DNA of 41,771 bases from an uncultured Acidobacteriota bacterium (GTDB lineage: Bacteria; Acidobacteriota; Thermoanaerobaculia; Gp7-AA8), in NCBI GenBank assembly GCA_937870635.1, contig CALMZP010000094.1, positions 1-41,771 of the forward strand, written 5' to 3'. Every line of letters starts with the position of its first letter. Position 1 is the stretch's first letter. The position numbers were made by a program, and so were the translations under genes. Positions 1,537 to 41,769 of this stretch are shown in pieces. Under the pieces are notes generated by a model that saw only the letters and a program-made list of their open reading frames with translations, made no database searches and was not told the origin of the DNA.

Positions 1537-2870
1537 GAACCCTTTTTGGAACAGACGGCATTCGCGGCAAAGCCCGCGAATATCCCCTCGACGTGGCCAC
1601 GATGTTCGCGATGGGTGAATCGCTCGCCCACCGCCTCAAAACCTCCGGCCCTCCCACCGTCCTCCTCGGAATGGACACCCGCGAGTCGGGTCCGGAGATC
1701 GCGCGCGCTCTCGCGGCCGGGCTGGCGGCCGGAGGAGGGAAGGCGATCTTCATCGGCGTGATCCCGACGCCCGGCGTCGCCTATCTCTGCCGCACGACCG
1801 ATGCGGTCGCGGCGATCTCGATCTCCGCGTCCCACAATCCGTTCGAAGACAACGGCGTGAAGATCTTCGGCCACGACGGGATGAAAGTGCCCGACGCGAT
1901 CGAGGAACAGATCGAGGACGAGCTGCGCGCGATCCGCCGCGAAAGCGTTCACGTCGACGATGAGAGCCTCGCTGATTCGCCGGAGCTCGTCGAAGCTTAC
2001 GAACGGTTTCTCCTCGCGGGCGTCAAGCCGAATGCGCTGGCCGGGAGAAGAGTCGTCCTCGACACCGGGCATGGCGCCGCGTACCGGATCGGTCCGGATG
2101 CGTTCCGCCGCGCCGGCGCCGAAGTCATCGTGATCAACGATCAGCCGGATGGAAGGAACATCAACGAGAAGTCGGGCGCTCTCCATCCGGAGCACATGGC
2201 CAGGGTGGTCGTCGAGCGGAAGGCGGATTTCGGCGTCGCGTTCGACGGCGATGCGGACCGCGCCATCTTTGTCGACGACAAAGGCAAAGTCCGCGACGGC
2301 GATGAGGTGATCTATCTGTGGGCGCAGCATCTCCGCAAAGAGGGGAAGCTCACCGGGAATCTCGTCGTCACCACCGTCATGTCGAACTTCGGTTTCGAGA
2401 AGCAGCTCGAGGCCGATGGACTGCGGCTGATCCGCGCACAGGTCGGCGACAAATACGTCCTCGAACAGATGCTCGAACAGAACGCCATCCTCGGCGGTGA
2501 GCAGTCGGGACACATCATCGATCGAACGGTACACACGACCGGCGACGGCATTCACACCGCGCTGGTGTTCGGCGAGATCCTGTCCGGCTCCTCGGCGAAG
2601 TTCTCCGAGCTGAAAACGTTCGAGCCGATGCCGCAGCTGCTCATCAACGAGAAGGTCGCGTCGAAGCCGCCGCTGGAGTCGCTGCCCGAGTATCAGAAGG
2701 CGCAGAGCGAAGCGCTCGCTCAGCTGGCAGGGCGTGGCCGGATCCTGGTCCGGTATTCAGGAACGGAGAATCTAGTGCGGGTGATGGTGGAAGGGGAGGA
2801 CGCGGCGCAGATCCGGAAGATCGCCGAGCACCTGCGCGATGTGCTGAGGGATGAGATCGCGAAATTTTAG
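1533..2870 (+). CDS. glmM: Phosphoglucosamine mutase
   Basis: Interconverts glucosamine-6-phosphate and glucosamine-1-phosphate, the step feeding UDP-GlcNAc and thus the Mur pathway downstream in this window. The 445-aa protein begins FGTDGIRG. It has the phosphoserine loop SASHNP with the catalytic Ser at about residue 100, the metal-binding DGDADR near residue 240 and the C-terminal RYSGTEN phosphate-binding motif. Length is normal for GlmM. The GTG start at 1533 overlaps the cdaR stop. The last codons and the TAG stop lie inside an ATTTTAG unit of the period-7 repeat that follows, so the repeat touches the end of the gene. In Firmicutes GlmM can bind CdaA and inhibit it. Confidence 0.97.
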
Positions 2871-2946
2871 ATTTTGGATTTTGGATTTTGGATTTTCACG
2901 ACAATCCGAATCCAAATTCAAAATTCAAAATCCAAAATCCAAAATC
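2863..2946. repeat. Heptamer inverted repeat (ATTTTGG / CCAAAAT), locus 1
   Basis: Left arm at 2863-2896 has four to five 7-bp units of ATTTTGG type, the first being ATTTTAG, which holds the glmM stop codon. Right arm at 2903-2946 is built of TCCAAAA-type units with some TTCAAAA variants. The arms are complementary and separated by about six bases. The element fills the whole gap between glmM and the SDR gene and stops one base before the ATG at 2948. Confidence 0.93.
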
Positions 2947-12050: not shown

Positions 12051-12120
12051 ATTTTGGATTTTGGATTTTGGATTTTGGATTAGCGCGGCAATCCAAAATC
12101 CAAAATCCAAAATCCAAAAT
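12051..12120. repeat. Heptamer inverted repeat, perfect 31-bp arms, locus between mraZ and rsmH
   Basis: Left arm 12051-12081 is four ATTTTGG units plus ATT. Right arm 12090-12120 is its exact reverse complement, AAT plus four CCAAAAT units. The loop is eight bases (AGCGCGGC). The element begins three bases after the mraZ stop and ends six bases before the rsmH ATG. Confidence 0.96.
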
Positions 12121-12126
12121 CGAAAG

Positions 12127-13573: not shown

Positions 13574-15501
13574 CTCTCTCGCAGAGGCGTGTCCTCATGA
13601 TCTCCGCGATCCTCGCCGCGTGGGCGGTCGTGGTCGTGGCGCGGCTGGCGCAGGTCCAGCTCGTGCGGAACAGCCATTACACGAACCGCGCGCAGCGCCA
13701 GCAGGAGCGCACACTCGCGCTCAATCCCGTGCGCGGATCGATTCTCGACGCGCAGGGCCGCGTCCTGGCCGAGAGCGTGGCGGGCGAATCGATTTACGCC
13801 GATCCGCAATCGATCCCGAACCACGCCGCGGTGGCGAAGAAACTCGCTTCGGTGCGCGGGCTGCGGGTGACCGCCTCCGAGATTCAGGCAAAACTCCGCA
13901 GTCAGTCCGCGTTCGTCTGGATCGCCCGGCAGGTTCCGAAGGACGTCGCCGATGAAGTGCGCCGCCTCGGTATCCCCGGCCTCGATTTCATCGAAGAACA
14001 TCGCCGCGCGTATCCGCGCGGAGCGCTCGCGGCCAACGTTGTCGGTTACGTCGGCATCGACGGCGACGGTCTCGCGGGAATCGAACATTCGTACGACACC
14101 CACATTCGCGGGAAGGCGGGCAAAGTCACAGTCCTCAAGGACGCGCGCCGCGGCATGTACCTCGTCGGCGGAGAGGGCCCGAACCGTCCGGTGGATGGTC
14201 ACGATCTCGTCCTGACCATCGACTCGGTCGTCCAGTTCATCGCGGAGAAGGCGCTCAGCGGCGCGGTGGAGCGCTATCGTGCGGCCGGCGGCGCAGCGAT
14301 CGTGATGGACGCCAGGGACGGCGCCATCCTGGCAATGGCTTCGGTACCGACTTTCGATCCTAATCGGTTTTCGGAAGCGGGGCCTGCTGCCTGGCGCAAT
14401 CGCGCCGTGCAGGACAGCTACGAACCTGGGTCGACGTTCAAGATCGTCACGGCGGCGGCGGGACTTGAAGAAGGCATTGTCACCCCCTCGCAGATGCTCG
14501 ACTGCGGCGACGGATCGATCCGCATCGCCAACGTCGAGATCCGCGAGCACAGCGGCAAGCGTTTCCAGTTCCTTTCGTTCTCCGACGTGATCGCGCATTC
14601 CTCGAACGTCGGCATCATCCGCGTCGCCCTGTCGCTCGGCGAACGGCGCCTCTATGACTACGTGCGCCGCTTCGGTTTCGGCGAGCGGACCGGGATCGAC
14701 CTTCCCGGCGAAGCGATCGGGCTGCTCCGGCGCCCCAATCGCTGGAGCCAGGTATCGAGTGCGAGCATCTCCATCGGCCAGGAGCTCAGCGCCACCCCGT
14801 TGCAGGTCGTGCGCGCGATGGGAGTCGTCGCGAACGGCGGCGTTCGCGTCGAGCCTCGCATCGTCGATCGCGTGGTCGATGCGGAAGGACGCACGATCTA
14901 CAAACCGAAACGCGTCGCCCCGCTCCGCGTGGTCTCCGAGCGTACCGCCGCCGTCCTGAACGAATTGTTGAAAGGGGTCGTGGACCACGGCACCGGTTCG
15001 GCCGCGGCGCTCGAGGAGCATGTCGTCGCGGGAAAGACCGGTACGGCCCAGAAGGCCATGCGCGGCGGATACTCGCCCGATCGCGTCCTGGCGTCGTTCG
15101 CCGGGTACGTTCCGGCCGACCGGCCGCGGCTGGTGATTCTCGTCTCGGTGGATGAGCCGAGGTTGGAGCAGTATGGGGGGAAGATTGCGGCGCCGGCGTT
15201 CCGGGAAATTGCCGAAGGCACCCTCCGCTACCTCGGCGTGGCACCCTCGGTGCCGCAGAGATCGATTGATATCGACGGGCTGGCGCTGGCCGCATTTTCG
15301 CAACGACCCGCGCCAGCAACCAGGACGGCAGTACCGGACCTTCTGGGGCTGGATGCGCGGGCGGCAGTCGCCGCGGCGACGGCGTCCGGGCTGCTGGTCG
15401 AGGCTGTCGGAAGCGGAGTGGTCAAATCACAACAACCAACAGCGGGCGAAGCTTTGCCGGGGAACCGCCGGATCGCACTGGTTTTAGCGGAGGCGCGATG
15501 A
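13570..15501 (+). CDS. ftsI: Septal transpeptidase FtsI (PBP3) with PASTA domain
   Basis: Class B penicillin-binding protein crosslinking septal peptidoglycan. The 643-aa protein has one N-terminal membrane anchor (about 8-28), the pedestal domain with RGSILDAQGRVLAES (55-69), and a transpeptidase domain with SxxK = STFK (288-291), SxN = SSN (344-346) and KTGT (489-492). A C-terminal PASTA-like module covers about 587-643 (AVPDLLGLDARAAV). PASTA domains are common in Gram-positive PBPs and also occur in some Acidobacteriota, Deltaproteobacteria and others. The ATG at 13570 overlaps the ftsL stop and its own stop overlaps the murE ATG. Confidence 0.97.
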   Translation: MTLSQRRVLMISAILAAWAVVVVARLAQVQLVRNSHYTNRAQRQQERTLALNPVRGSILDAQGRVLAESVAGESIYADPQSIPNHAAVAKKLASVRGLRVTASEIQAKLRSQSAFVWIARQVPKDVADEVRRLGIPGLDFIEEHRRAYPRGALAANVVGYVGIDGDGLAGIEHSYDTHIRGKAGKVTVLKDARRGMYLVGGEGPNRPVDGHDLVLTIDSVVQFIAEKALSGAVERYRAAGGAAIVMDARDGAILAMASVPTFDPNRFSEAGPAAWRNRAVQDSYEPGSTFKIVTAAAGLEEGIVTPSQMLDCGDGSIRIANVEIREHSGKRFQFLSFSDVIAHSSNVGIIRVALSLGERRLYDYVRRFGFGERTGIDLPGEAIGLLRRPNRWSQVSSASISIGQELSATPLQVVRAMGVVANGGVRVEPRIVDRVVDAEGRTIYKPKRVAPLRVVSERTAAVLNELLKGVVDHGTGSAAALEEHVVAGKTGTAQKAMRGGYSPDRVLASFAGYVPADRPRLVILVSVDEPRLEQYGGKIAAPAFREIAEGTLRYLGVAPSVPQRSIDIDGLALAAFSQRPAPATRTAVPDLLGLDARAAVAAATASGLLVEAVGSGVVKSQQPTAGEALPGNRRIALVLAEAR

Positions 15502-16988
15502 AACTCGCGGATCTTCTTCGCGATGTGCCGGTGGTCTCGGTGTCGGGTTCGACCGACGTCCAGGTCACGGGCGTCACGGCCGACTCGCGCCTCGTGCGCA
15601 AGGGCTCGGTGTTCGTGGCGATCCCCGGAACGCAGCAGGATGGCTCGAAGTACATCCCCCAGGCGGTCCAGAAGGGCGCCGCCGCTGTGGTCCTATCCTC
15701 CCAAGGTCCAGGGTCCAGGGTCCAGGGTCCCGAGGTGGTGGTGGAAGACGCTCGCGCCGCGCTCGCTCTGCTCGCGGCAAACTTCTACGGCCGCCCGGCC
15801 GAGTCGATGTCGCTGGTCGGTGTGACGGGGACGTCGGGCAAGACCACGACGACGAAGATGATCGAGTCGATCTTCGACGCGACGGGGAAGCCGGTGGGTC
15901 TGATCGGCACCATCGAGTATCGGGCCGGGGAAGAGCGCCTTGTCGCAGATCGAACGACGCCCGACGCGGTCGTGCTGCAGGAATGGTTTGCGAAGATGCG
16001 CGATGCCGGTGTCCGTCACGCGGTGATGGAAGTCTCGTCGCACGCGCTGGCCCTGAAGAGGACGCATGGCCTGCACTTTCACGCGGCTGTGTTTACGAAC
16101 CTCTCGCGCGATCACTTCGACTTCCACAGGGATTTCGACGACTACTTCGCGGCCAAGCGGATCCTCTTCGATCAGATCGATCGGGGCAAGCAGACCGCCG
16201 TCGTGAACATCGACGACACGTACGGCCGCCGGCTCGCCTCCGATCTGGGCAAGACGACGATGTCGTTCGGCCAGAGGGCCGAAGCGGAGATCCATCCGGC
16301 GCCGGGCTTCGAGATCTCGGTGCGCGGCCTTCGCGGCACCGTCGTCACTCCTGCCGGCGAGGTGAAGATCGAATCCGATCTTCTCGGATTGCCAAATCTC
16401 TACAACTGGCTGGGAGCAATTGGTGCGGCGATCGTGGTGGGTATTCCGCTCGACACGATCGCTGCGGGCGTCCGGAATCTTCGGTCGGTGCGCGGCCGGT
16501 TCGAGCGCGTGCCGGCCGGCGCCGGTCCGACGGTGATCGTCGACTATGCGCACAAACCGGATGCGCTCGAGAAGCTGCTGCGCGCGGTGCGGGAACTGGC
16601 CGGCGGCAAGCGGGTGGTGTTGCTCATGGGTTGCGGCGGCGACCGCGACAAGGGGAAGCGGCCGGAGATGGGTGCCATCGCCGGGCGGCTCGCCGATTAC
16701 ACGGTGCTCACGAGCGACAACCCGCGCGGAGAAAAGCCGGAGGCGATCCTCGACGACATCGAAGCGGGCATGAAGGAAGTTCCTCGCGAGCGGTACACGC
16801 GCATTGCCGATCGTCGCGATGCCATCACCGGGGCGATCGCGGAAGGGTCGGACGACGACGTCATCGTGATCGCGGGGAAGGGGCACGAGACGTATCAGGT
16901 GATGGGCGACCAGGTGATTCATTTCGACGATCGTGAAGAAGCGGAGCTCGCGCTGAAAAAGCGAGCGGAAAATATACTTCGAAAGTAA
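15498..16988 (+). CDS. murE: UDP-MurNAc-tripeptide synthetase, meso-DAP-adding
   Basis: ATP-dependent ligase adding the third residue to UDP-MurNAc-L-Ala-D-Glu. The 496-aa protein has the P-loop GTSGKTTTT (111-119) and the motif DNPR at 407-410, which marks the meso-diaminopimelate-specific enzymes, hence a Gram-negative-type stem peptide. Residues 69-79 (QGPGSRVQGPE), in the N-terminal domain, are encoded by a translated GGTCCAG heptamer array, an in-frame expansion in a loop of variable length. The ATG at 15498 overlaps the ftsI stop as ATGA. A 442-bp gap follows before murF, the largest break inside the cluster. Confidence 0.97.
   Translation: MKLADLLRDVPVVSVSGSTDVQVTGVTADSRLVRKGSVFVAIPGTQQDGSKYIPQAVQKGAAAVVLSSQGPGSRVQGPEVVVEDARAALALLAANFYGRPAESMSLVGVTGTSGKTTTTKMIESIFDATGKPVGLIGTIEYRAGEERLVADRTTPDAVVLQEWFAKMRDAGVRHAVMEVSSHALALKRTHGLHFHAAVFTNLSRDHFDFHRDFDDYFAAKRILFDQIDRGKQTAVVNIDDTYGRRLASDLGKTTMSFGQRAEAEIHPAPGFEISVRGLRGTVVTPAGEVKIESDLLGLPNLYNWLGAIGAAIVVGIPLDTIAAGVRNLRSVRGRFERVPAGAGPTVIVDYAHKPDALEKLLRAVRELAGGKRVVLLMGCGGDRDKGKRPEMGAIAGRLADYTVLTSDNPRGEKPEAILDDIEAGMKEVPRERYTRIADRRDAITGAIAEGSDDDVIVIAGKGHETYQVMGDQVIHFDDREEAELALKKRAENILRK
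15705..15730 (+). repeat. Translated GGTCCAG heptamer array inside murE
   Basis: Three complete GGTCCAG units and a partial fourth (GGTCC) lie at 15705-15730. Twenty-one bases equal seven codons, so three units keep the frame. The peptide is QGPGSRVQGP. This is the only heptamer array in the window that lies wholly inside a gene. Confidence 0.9.
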
Positions 16989-17238: not shown

Positions 17239-17385
17239 TTCGACCTTCGGCCTTCGGCCTTCGACCTTCGGCGTTTCACGCGGAGCCGCGGAGTTCGCGG
17301 AGGAAGGTTCGTCGCGATCTCCGCGTCTCCGCGTGAAACGCTTCTCAGAAACCCGAAGGTCGAAGGTCGAAGGTCGAAGGTCGAA
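17239..17385. repeat. Nested palindrome between murE and murF
   Basis: Outer heptamers are TTCGACC, TTCGGCC, TTCGGCC, TTCGACC, TTCGGC (17239-17272) opposed by four GAAGGTC units (17355-17382) plus GAA. Inner arms 17272-17293 and 17319-17340 (CGTTTCACGCGGAG on the left) match at 21 of 22 positions. The remaining part of the 442-bp gap (16989-17238) starts AT-rich and shows no credible gene; an open frame at 17024-17443 is repeat-derived. Confidence 0.93.
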
Positions 17386-22434: not shown

Positions 22435-23610
22435 ATGGGCGAGATGGGCGGGACGAAGACACTGATGATCGCCGGCGGCGGCACGGGGGGGCACATCTAC
22501 CCGGCCATCGCCATCGCCCGAGGCTATGTCGAGCGCGATCCGTCGCGCCGGGTGGTCTTCGTCGGGACCGAGAAAGGCCTCGAGAAGACGATCGTCCCGA
22601 AGGCTGGTTTTCCGCTCGAGTTCATCTCCGTGGGAGGGCTGAAGGGAAAAGGCGGACTCGACCTGCTTCGCAACCTGGCGCGCCTGCCGGTGGGATTTTT
22701 CCAGGCGTGGAGGGTGGTCGGACGGCACAAGCCGTCGATCGTTCTCGGAGTCGGCGGCTATTCGTCCGGGCCCGTCCTCGCGGCTGCGTGGATGCGGGGG
22801 ATTCCCACGATGATTCACGAGCAGAACGCGTATCCCGGCCTGACGAACCGGATGCTCGCAAAGTTTGTGAGGGCGGTGGCCGTGGCGTTCGCCGATGCGT
22901 TGCCGCGCCTGAAGCGGACAGACGGTGTCGTCACCGGAAACCCGATCCGCAGAGAATTCTTCGAAGCAGGTGGAGCGCGGGCGATCCCGCCCGCAAACAG
23001 TGGAGCGCGGGCGACCCCGCCCGCGGGTTCTTCGTCCCAGGGCGCGGGCGGGGTCGCCCGCGCTCCAAAGCGTCGCCTTCTCCTCTTCGGTGGCAGCCAG
23101 GGATCCCGGATCCTGAACGACACGATGACCGGCGCGCTGCTCTTTCTGGCGCGCCTGAAGGACGAGCTGGAGATCGTTCACCAGACCGGGCCGGACGAAC
23201 TGAAGAAGGTGCAGGAGGCCTACCGCAGCTCGCCGTTCACGAACGCGCGTGTGGTGCCGTACCTCGATCCGATCGTCGGCGAGATTGCGGCGGCGGATTT
23301 CATCGTGTCGCGCGCCGGTGCGATGACGATCGGCGAGCTCTCCGCGATCGGACGGGCGGCCATCCTCGTGCCCTTTGCGGCGGCCACGAACAACCATCAG
23401 GAGCTCAACGCACGCGTCGTGGAGTCGGCAGGCGGCGCGGTGGTGATCACCGAAAAGGAGCTCACGCCGGAGCGCCTGGCTGCAGCGATCACGAGCATCG
23501 CCAGCGATCCGGAGCGCGCCCGGCGGATGGGCGAAGCTTCGCGAAAGCTCGCCAGTCCCGAAGCAACCGACAGAATCGTCGATTTCATTGAAAAGATTCA
23601 GAGAAATTAA
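22435..23610 (+). CDS. murG: UDP-GlcNAc:lipid I GlcNAc transferase MurG
   Basis: GT28-family enzyme at the inner face of the membrane making lipid II. The 391-aa protein has the glycine loops GGGTGGHI (14-21) and FGGSQGSR, and the acceptor/donor motifs GVGGYSSGP, HEQNAYPGLTNR and NNHQELNA. Between the two Rossmann domains, after VTGNPIRREFFEA, there is an extra Ala/Pro/Gly-rich stretch (about residues 179-211). It is encoded by two direct copies and one inverted copy of the 24-bp palindromic element, so the linker is about 25 residues longer than usual while catalytic motifs are intact. ATG 22435 or the in-frame ATG 22444 may be the start. Confidence 0.97.
   Translation: MGEMGGTKTLMIAGGGTGGHIYPAIAIARGYVERDPSRRVVFVGTEKGLEKTIVPKAGFPLEFISVGGLKGKGGLDLLRNLARLPVGFFQAWRVVGRHKPSIVLGVGGYSSGPVLAAAWMRGIPTMIHEQNAYPGLTNRMLAKFVRAVAVAFADALPRLKRTDGVVTGNPIRREFFEAGGARAIPPANSGARATPPAGSSSQGAGGVARAPKRRLLLFGGSQGSRILNDTMTGALLFLARLKDELEIVHQTGPDELKKVQEAYRSSPFTNARVVPYLDPIVGEIAAADFIVSRAGAMTIGELSAIGRAAILVPFAAATNNHQELNARVVESAGGAVVITEKELTPERLAAAITSIASDPERARRMGEASRKLASPEATDRIVDFIEKIQRN
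22971..23067 (+). repeat. Triple 24-bp palindromic element inside murG
   Basis: Direct copies at 22971-22994 and 23001-23024, six bases apart, and an inverted copy at 23044-23067 that is the exact reverse complement of copy 2. Each direct copy is read as GARAIPPA or GARATPPA, the same frame as the carB copy; the inverted copy reads GGVARAP. The total insertion is in frame. Confidence 0.93.
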
Positions 23611-30216: not shown

Positions 30217-30381
30217 AAGGATGAAGGATGAAGGATGAAGGATGAAGGATGCCCGATCCACGTCATCCTGAGCTGCGAAGACAGCGAAGGACCTCAGAAT
30301 ACGTAACTTGAGGTCCTTCGCCGTCTTCGCGGCTCAGGATGACGTGCTGGCTTGTCCCCGTCCTTCATCCTTCATCCTTCA
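30217..30381. repeat. Nested palindrome upstream of guaA
   Basis: Outer heptamers: five AAGGATG units at 30217-30251 opposed by three TCCTTCA units at 30361-30381. Inner arms at 30259-30296 and 30309-30346 (CACGTCATCCTGAG at the left end) match at 36 of 38 bases around a 12-base loop. Similar CATCCTGAGC-type inverted repeats are widespread in intergenic DNA of several phyla. No gene lies here. Confidence 0.93.
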
Positions 30382-41679: not shown

Positions 41680-41769
41680 ATTTTGGATTTTGGATTTTGG
41701 ATTTTGGATTTGCGCCAATCCAAAATCCAAAATCCAAAATCCAAAATCCAAAATCCAAAATCCAAAATC
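41680..41769. repeat. Heptamer inverted repeat at window end
   Basis: Left arm 41680-41710 has four ATTTTGG units; right arm 41717-41768 has seven CCAAAAT units, so the right arm is longer than the left. The loop is short (TGCGCC). The repeat may continue beyond the window. Confidence 0.93.

Follow-up and report, generated by a model that had tools for sequence, protein, structure and literature searches.

The window analysed here (the whole stretch of 41,771 nucleotides, from an uncultured Acidobacteriota bacterium) carries on its forward strand an intact murE at 15498..16988, which encodes a UDP-MurNAc-L-Ala-D-Glu:meso-DAP ligase of 496 amino acids. Throughout, G000 denotes the genome of the window, G001 and so forth its relatives, and L followed by a number a locus. 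The product has full Mur ligase domains and matches NCBIfam NF001126 over its full length (562 bits, cut-off 373). Its best PDB fold is a chain of a plastid RNA polymerase complex, named by sequence matches as the MurE-like PAP11, followed by the MurE structures 2xja, 2wtz and 1e8c. Within the gene the heptamer GGTCCAG is repeated 3.7 times without interruption at 15705..15730 (forward strand, read from the bases), and the tract encodes QGPGSRVQGP, residues 69-78 of the protein; TRF called it at 15701-15730 with period 7, 4.3 copies and 95% matches. The claim of an earlier note on this DNA, that a heptamer array is translated inside murE, is therefore borne out. The array is beyond chance: its 19-match period-7 run was reached by none of 5000 synonymous-codon shuffles, the longest shuffled run being 16.

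The array does not stand alone in the genome. In the 4.52 Mb of G000, GGTCCAGGGTCCAG gave 69 matches (overlapping registers of one array counted apart) and its reversed control none, and this tandem unit was absent from the other 18 genomes of the order, being present in 1 of 19. When up to 3 mismatches were allowed, a 25-mer across the arm, CTCCCAAGGTCCAGGGTCCAGGGTC, gave 86 matches at 58 places in G000, five of them exact and murE among these, against none for its reversed control and none in G001, G002, G011 and G015. The identity with dispersed copies extends beyond the tandem units into a non-repeat boundary, CTCCCAA, and the stretch 15698..15731 (forward strand), boundary included, is identical over all 34 bases to the intergenic copy L192. 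Aligned copies disclose the layout of a hairpin element, in which a CTGGACC/TTGGACC arm, an inner TTGGGAG, a spacer and an inner CTCCCAA are followed by a GGTCCAA/G arm; in every two-armed copy the CTGGACC arm precedes the GGTCCAG arm. What murE holds is the 3' arm of such an element, the 5' arm being missing. Among 47 fetched loci, 32 of the 45 elements other than murE were two-armed and 13 one-armed, so a lone arm is not unusual. Three two-armed elements had fold z scores from -5.0 to -11.8, and the murE stretch, as one arm and not a palindrome, folded no better than shuffles (z +0.94). Some spacers contain nested families of another kind, namely CGAAGGT heptamer arrays and in some copies other palindromes (L191, L194, L201, L203, L206).

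A two-sided codon test, applied to 46 of the 58 places, placed 45 of them outside genes and left murE as the only gene-internal copy; among control positions the test returned a coding call for 89% of the 1077 that lie within genes and for 10% of the 304 that lie between them. Two further elements (L002, L203) fell inside open reading frames of a cruder gene caller, and were rejected as coding copies because by eye they lie upstream of the real protein start and the codon test did not flag them. A role as terminator was likewise rejected, as the 45 elements outside murE occupy tandem (19), convergent (16) and divergent (9) settings, with one unclear, and are not confined to gene ends.

As the earlier note had also stated, the frame is preserved only for units in multiples of three. 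In silico, removal of one unit gave a truncated product of 106 amino acids and addition of one an out-of-frame product of 481, while the frame was kept when three units were gained or lost. This dependence on unit number is what would be expected of a phase-variable switch, in which slippage by one heptamer toggles MurE in part of the population, and heptamer tracts do phase-vary in Haemophilus at the hmw promoters, according to the part of that report available to us (PMC2651432). There the likeness is a tandem heptamer tied to one gene. However, the hmw tracts number 13-38 units and, in the same part of the source, sit upstream of adhesin genes, whereas the murE tract has 3.7 units and lies within a gene taken as essential. 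MurE is taken to be essential, and no second murE was seen among the matches in G000, where the five others are partial and share 26-37% identity; cells switched off should thus die. Moreover, the unit belongs to a dispersed family, of which 45 of 46 examined places lie outside genes by the codon test. Given the short tract, the apparently single murE and the dispersed unit, we set phase variation aside as very improbable, and the switch proposed in the earlier note is not supported.

Period-7 arrays are abundant in G000 as a whole. In sampled contigs totalling 280 kb, arrays with 14 or more matched bases and a period between 2 and 24 numbered 47, of which 35 had period 7; none had periods 2-6, and all other periods up to 24 together accounted for 12. 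One dinucleotide shuffle of the sample yielded no period-7 array. When arrays of at least 12 matched bases were counted in 322 kb of G000 (the sample plus the window), 47 of 59 had the reverse-complement unit within 300 bases and none had the reversed unit; in G018 the paired fraction was 3 of 13. Hairpins with the architecture of the GGTCCA element and other units also lie in the window itself, recognised by TRF and pairing and assigned to neither strand. One, with an ATTTTGG arm and then a CCAAAAT arm, occupies 2864..2946 in an intergenic position, overlapping the end of the upstream open reading frame by a few bases, and another ATTTTGG/CCAAAAT hairpin is intergenic at 12051..12125. The murE-murF gap holds a TTCGGCC arm followed by a CGAAGGT arm (17239..17385), an intergenic hairpin at 30217..30381 has an AAGGATG arm and then a TCCTTCA arm, and an ATTTTGG arm followed by an AATCCAA arm stands at the window end (41680..41769).

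Arm order was identical in all scored pairs of each unit family, also across genomes that share a unit, which suggests that elements were copied and argues against slippage having occurred separately at every site. This bears on the possibility that the murE tract grew where it stands, by slippage starting at a GGTCCAGGGTCC that happened to be in the loop, and without relation to the intergenic arrays. Seven-base slippage may be favoured, since no other tandem period comes close to period 7 in the sampled 280 kb, and unit counts do differ among the GGTCCA elements. Against growth in place, the non-repeat boundary CTCCCAA falls within the identity to dispersed copies, and the constant polarity of the arms argues for element copying; we consider it improbable as the origin of the tract. 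Growth of the tract by slippage after its capture from a dispersed element is possible.

Across the order the density of period-7 arrays differed, with 16 per 100 kb in the samples of G013 and G016 and 1 in that of G011, several samples being too small to judge. Two species of one genus, G016 and G017, had 13 and 0 such arrays in 80 kb each, and no Y1 transposase match was found in G017. According to the crude gene caller, 8 of the 59 arrays of G000 lie wholly within genes. Those in PhoU, RuvA, a GlmS-like protein, DUF1802 and one open reading frame without a Pfam match were discarded as coding arrays, because the array falls within the initial residues of the predicted product, ahead of any conserved domain detected, and probably upstream of the true start. 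The remainder comprises murE and one element, with two arrays, in an Eco57I-type methylase (L139). In this DNA methylase gene of G000 a CGAAGGT-type heptamer hairpin with both arms is present in frame (L139 13354-13502).

The array lies where MurE varies most in length. In an AlphaFold2 model (37 sequences, the alignment drawn from 36 of 80 loci; mean pLDDT 93.9), residues 69-78 are predicted as a coil between strands 63-66 and 79-82, and this coil is the lowest-confidence block of the model. Among 18 MurE proteins of the order, the site of the array is by far the widest length-variable region, with 23 columns against 1-5 elsewhere, and the aligned span at the loop ranges from 29 to 61 residues. 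By sequence alignment, the solved E. coli MurE (7b6o) has extra residues at the same place. No GGTCCAG array was found in the 17 other MurE loops nor in a fragment from G014, which has a short loop; several of these proteins, none of which is from the same genus, have other inserts, and among them no loop presented itself as a clean empty site. The relatives used for this comparison share 58-74% protein identity, the genus search having returned G000 alone, and a class-wide MurE search at a cut-off of 1e-120 added one further MurE (G032). Two distant acidobacterial MurE proteins (L081, L088) show a longer insertion in another loop, in the middle domain, with residues that look repeat-encoded.

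Where the earlier note had looked to relatives for the same residues encoded without a DNA repeat, their loops instead contain other residues, some of which come from other multicopy repeats. The loop DNA of G011 consists of a repeat with defined boundaries, some 48 bases long, which gave 48 matches in G011, 12 of them exact, none for the reversed control and none in G000, G001, G002 and G015; the murE copy folds no better than shuffles (z -0.80). In G002 the loop is a whole 52-base GTGGAG...CTCCAC element that forms a double hairpin (z -2.53 for the murE copy), with 8 matches in G002, 6 exact; neither the reversed control nor any of the four other genomes searched gave a match. The G001 loop palindrome has one other match in G001, 12 in the sister genome G002 and 1 in G015, and is probably another multicopy repeat. 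As the GTGGAG edge is common to the loops of G001 and G002, these two may go back to a single old insertion that changed afterwards. For G015 the results should be interpreted with more caution: its loop is a CTCGCC heptamer-like array with 46 matches in G015 against 34 for the reversed control, the motif being near-identical backwards, and on account of that control we regard repeat capture there as weakly indicated. The long loop of G005 was rejected as another repeat, its one match being a single copy. Perfect hairpins numbered 11 in murE over 18 genomes, two of them in the loop. When a MurE tree was built with the loop left out, the five repeat-labelled rows required at least three changes, and well-supported branches alone force only one. 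Since the loop repeats belong to different families, we argue for separate captures.

New sequence thus fills the loop in several genera, as it might if the added residues were selected, for example for contact with a MurE partner. Yet the inserted residues are unrelated between lineages, MurE of G016 is intact with a very short loop (the 29-residue span), and the predicted structure has its lowest confidence at exactly this loop, all of which makes a functional role of the residues very unlikely. We think still less of an assembly artefact, in which the collapse of a repeat placed the arm in murE. The source is indeed a fragmented draft assembly of 171 contigs, but the reading frame continues unbroken on either side of the array and encodes full MurE domains, and other repeats occur in the same loop of separately assembled genomes. 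In addition, ordinary sequencing reads are longer than 34 bases, the length of the repeat. An error of this kind is extremely unlikely.

Taken together, our results make it very probable that the murE array is an arm of a dispersed, lineage-specific GGTCCA(A/G)-heptamer hairpin, captured in frame in a tolerant loop, and that it is fixed and near-neutral and does not act as a switch. A hairpin arm would have been copied or inserted into the loop codons of murE, either arriving alone or left behind when a complete element subsequently lost its 5' arm. In-frame copies would have persisted, since the loop accommodates widely differing sequences and arrays of the GGTCCAG unit are free of stop codons in all frames; the protein would have gained some ten residues, fixed and near-neutral. 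Similar events, involving repeats of other families, may have reached the same MurE loop in other genera as well as MurG and MurD. Of the two readings in the earlier note, the fixed neutral loop is the better supported, in that the array lies in the most length-variable stretch of the protein and in a low-confidence coil; that the tract is fixed and neutral we infer from these features, as we do the step from an intergenic element to a coding copy. Neither of the two readings had recognised the array as the arm of a dispersed element.

Two other genes, murG and murD, contain insertions of a similar kind in the window or in relatives. In the window, murG (22435..23610, forward strand) encodes 391 amino acids, compared with 357-370 in 13 relatives, and contains an in-frame multi-hairpin GTGGAGCGCGGGCG...GCTCCA element at 22970..23067 (forward strand; fold z -7.67) that adds about 27 residues. 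The element family gave 29 matches in 503 kb of G000, which is not an unbiased sample, with none for the reversed control and none in 775 kb of other genomes. MurG of G001 carries a heptamer array at the same site, and murD of G016 (L272) a full heptamer hairpin in frame, with CAGATGG and CCATCCG arms. In a scan of 10 genes, with 12-18 genomes each, perfect hairpins of at least 9 pairs also occurred elsewhere in several genes. In genes this rich in GC, short perfect hairpins are no rarity and by themselves provide no evidence of insertion; the case therefore rests on copy number.

Of the 48 matches of the G011 repeat, 27 were examined, and copies lie inside or between Pfam domains of MurE, ABC-F-like, aminotransferase, ArsA-type and ApbE open reading frames. 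The codon test flagged 6 of the 27, including those in MurE, the ABC-F-like gene and the aminotransferase, and left the ArsA-type and ApbE copies unflagged. In G011 the test called 27% of 94 intergenic control positions coding, and for that reason the flagged copies L231, L234 and L244 are uncertain. The copies inside open reading frames (L227, L230, L233 and L240, and with less certainty the three just named), the ABC-F-like, ArsA-type, ApbE and aminotransferase ones included, occupy more than one reading frame.

A Y1 transposase gene flanked on both sides by a repeat is a hallmark of REP/RAYT units. The murG (TGGAGC) family flanks a Y1 transposase gene in this manner at L278, 127 and 147 bases from the domain match. 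For the GGTCCA family, a Y1/RAYT transposase was rejected as the mobiliser, given that no GGTCCA element lies within 2 kb of any of the three Y1 matches in G000. It is conceivable, though we hold it as a tentative and rather doubtful proposal, that these hairpins represent a distinct class of dispersed element in this order of Acidobacteriota, with stems of tandem heptamers, in which the sequence is replaced in each genus while period 7, inverted pairing and polarity persist. Such elements would be copied by a common machinery other than a REP transposase, and through in-frame capture they would, time after time, change the sequence of particular surface loops in essential cell-wall enzymes. 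Should the heptamer-armed hairpins have machinery of their own, they would form an element class without a known mobiliser.

These results have some bearing on how short repeats in essential genes are viewed. Dispersed repeats that land in frame probably offer essential enzymes a way to add residues to their loops, and a tolerant site may be hit more than once, by a different repeat family in each lineage. Finding a heptamer tract in an essential gene is not enough to call it a contingency locus, and it should be asked first whether the tract is a copy of a dispersed element. Among the open-access matches listed, with the subscription literature mostly outside that set, there was no description of such a combination of heptamer-armed hairpins in Acidobacteria and repeats inside murE.

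The closest parallels lie with repeats described elsewhere. Short palindromic RPEs are found in frame within unrelated housekeeping genes of Rickettsia, as stated in the portion of the report at hand (PMC10969869), and the likeness to our case, as far as that portion goes, is a repeat of a palindromic family in frame in a housekeeping gene. The GGTCCA family is a multicopy dispersed repeat, mostly intergenic, and its murE copy is an in-frame insertion in a conserved gene; these are the features by which RPE-like repeats and intragenic REPs are recognised. In contrast to RPEs, however, the murE copy is a single heptamer-built arm without a hairpin, the sequence families are others, and the host belongs to the Acidobacteriota. 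GTAG/CGTC REPs are multicopy hairpins, mostly intergenic and sometimes intragenic, and recB of X. campestris and X. oryzae carries different REPs at about the same site, according to the accessible part of the source (PMC3733652). Two of our families bear some likeness to them: CGTC marks the edge of the G011 element in 18 of 27 rows, and the murG family flanks a Y1 transposase gene. Yet the same source gives CGTC REPs an 8-9 bp stem and a loop of 4-5 bases, whereas by eye the G011 stem is longer than this and its loop has about 3 bases; the GGTCCA family differs further in its heptamer-tandem arms, and no GTAG or CGTC tag was noticed in it.

Heptamer families of simple sequence repeats are reported from Xanthomonas (GGGAATC), Nostoc (GGGGA(C/T)T) and Beggiatoaceae (TAACTGA, with 169 TAACTGA sets), in the sections of the two papers that were available (PMC4692102, PMC4679880). 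On that material they share with G000 many dispersed, mostly intergenic heptamer arrays of a favoured unit in one genome. They differ in that here many units coexist, mostly as inverted pairs, and units change between genera while period and architecture recur. Intragenic palindromic repeats are thus already known, and what our analysis adds to them is the heptamer-armed hairpin and the recurrent capture of repeats at one loop of MurE.
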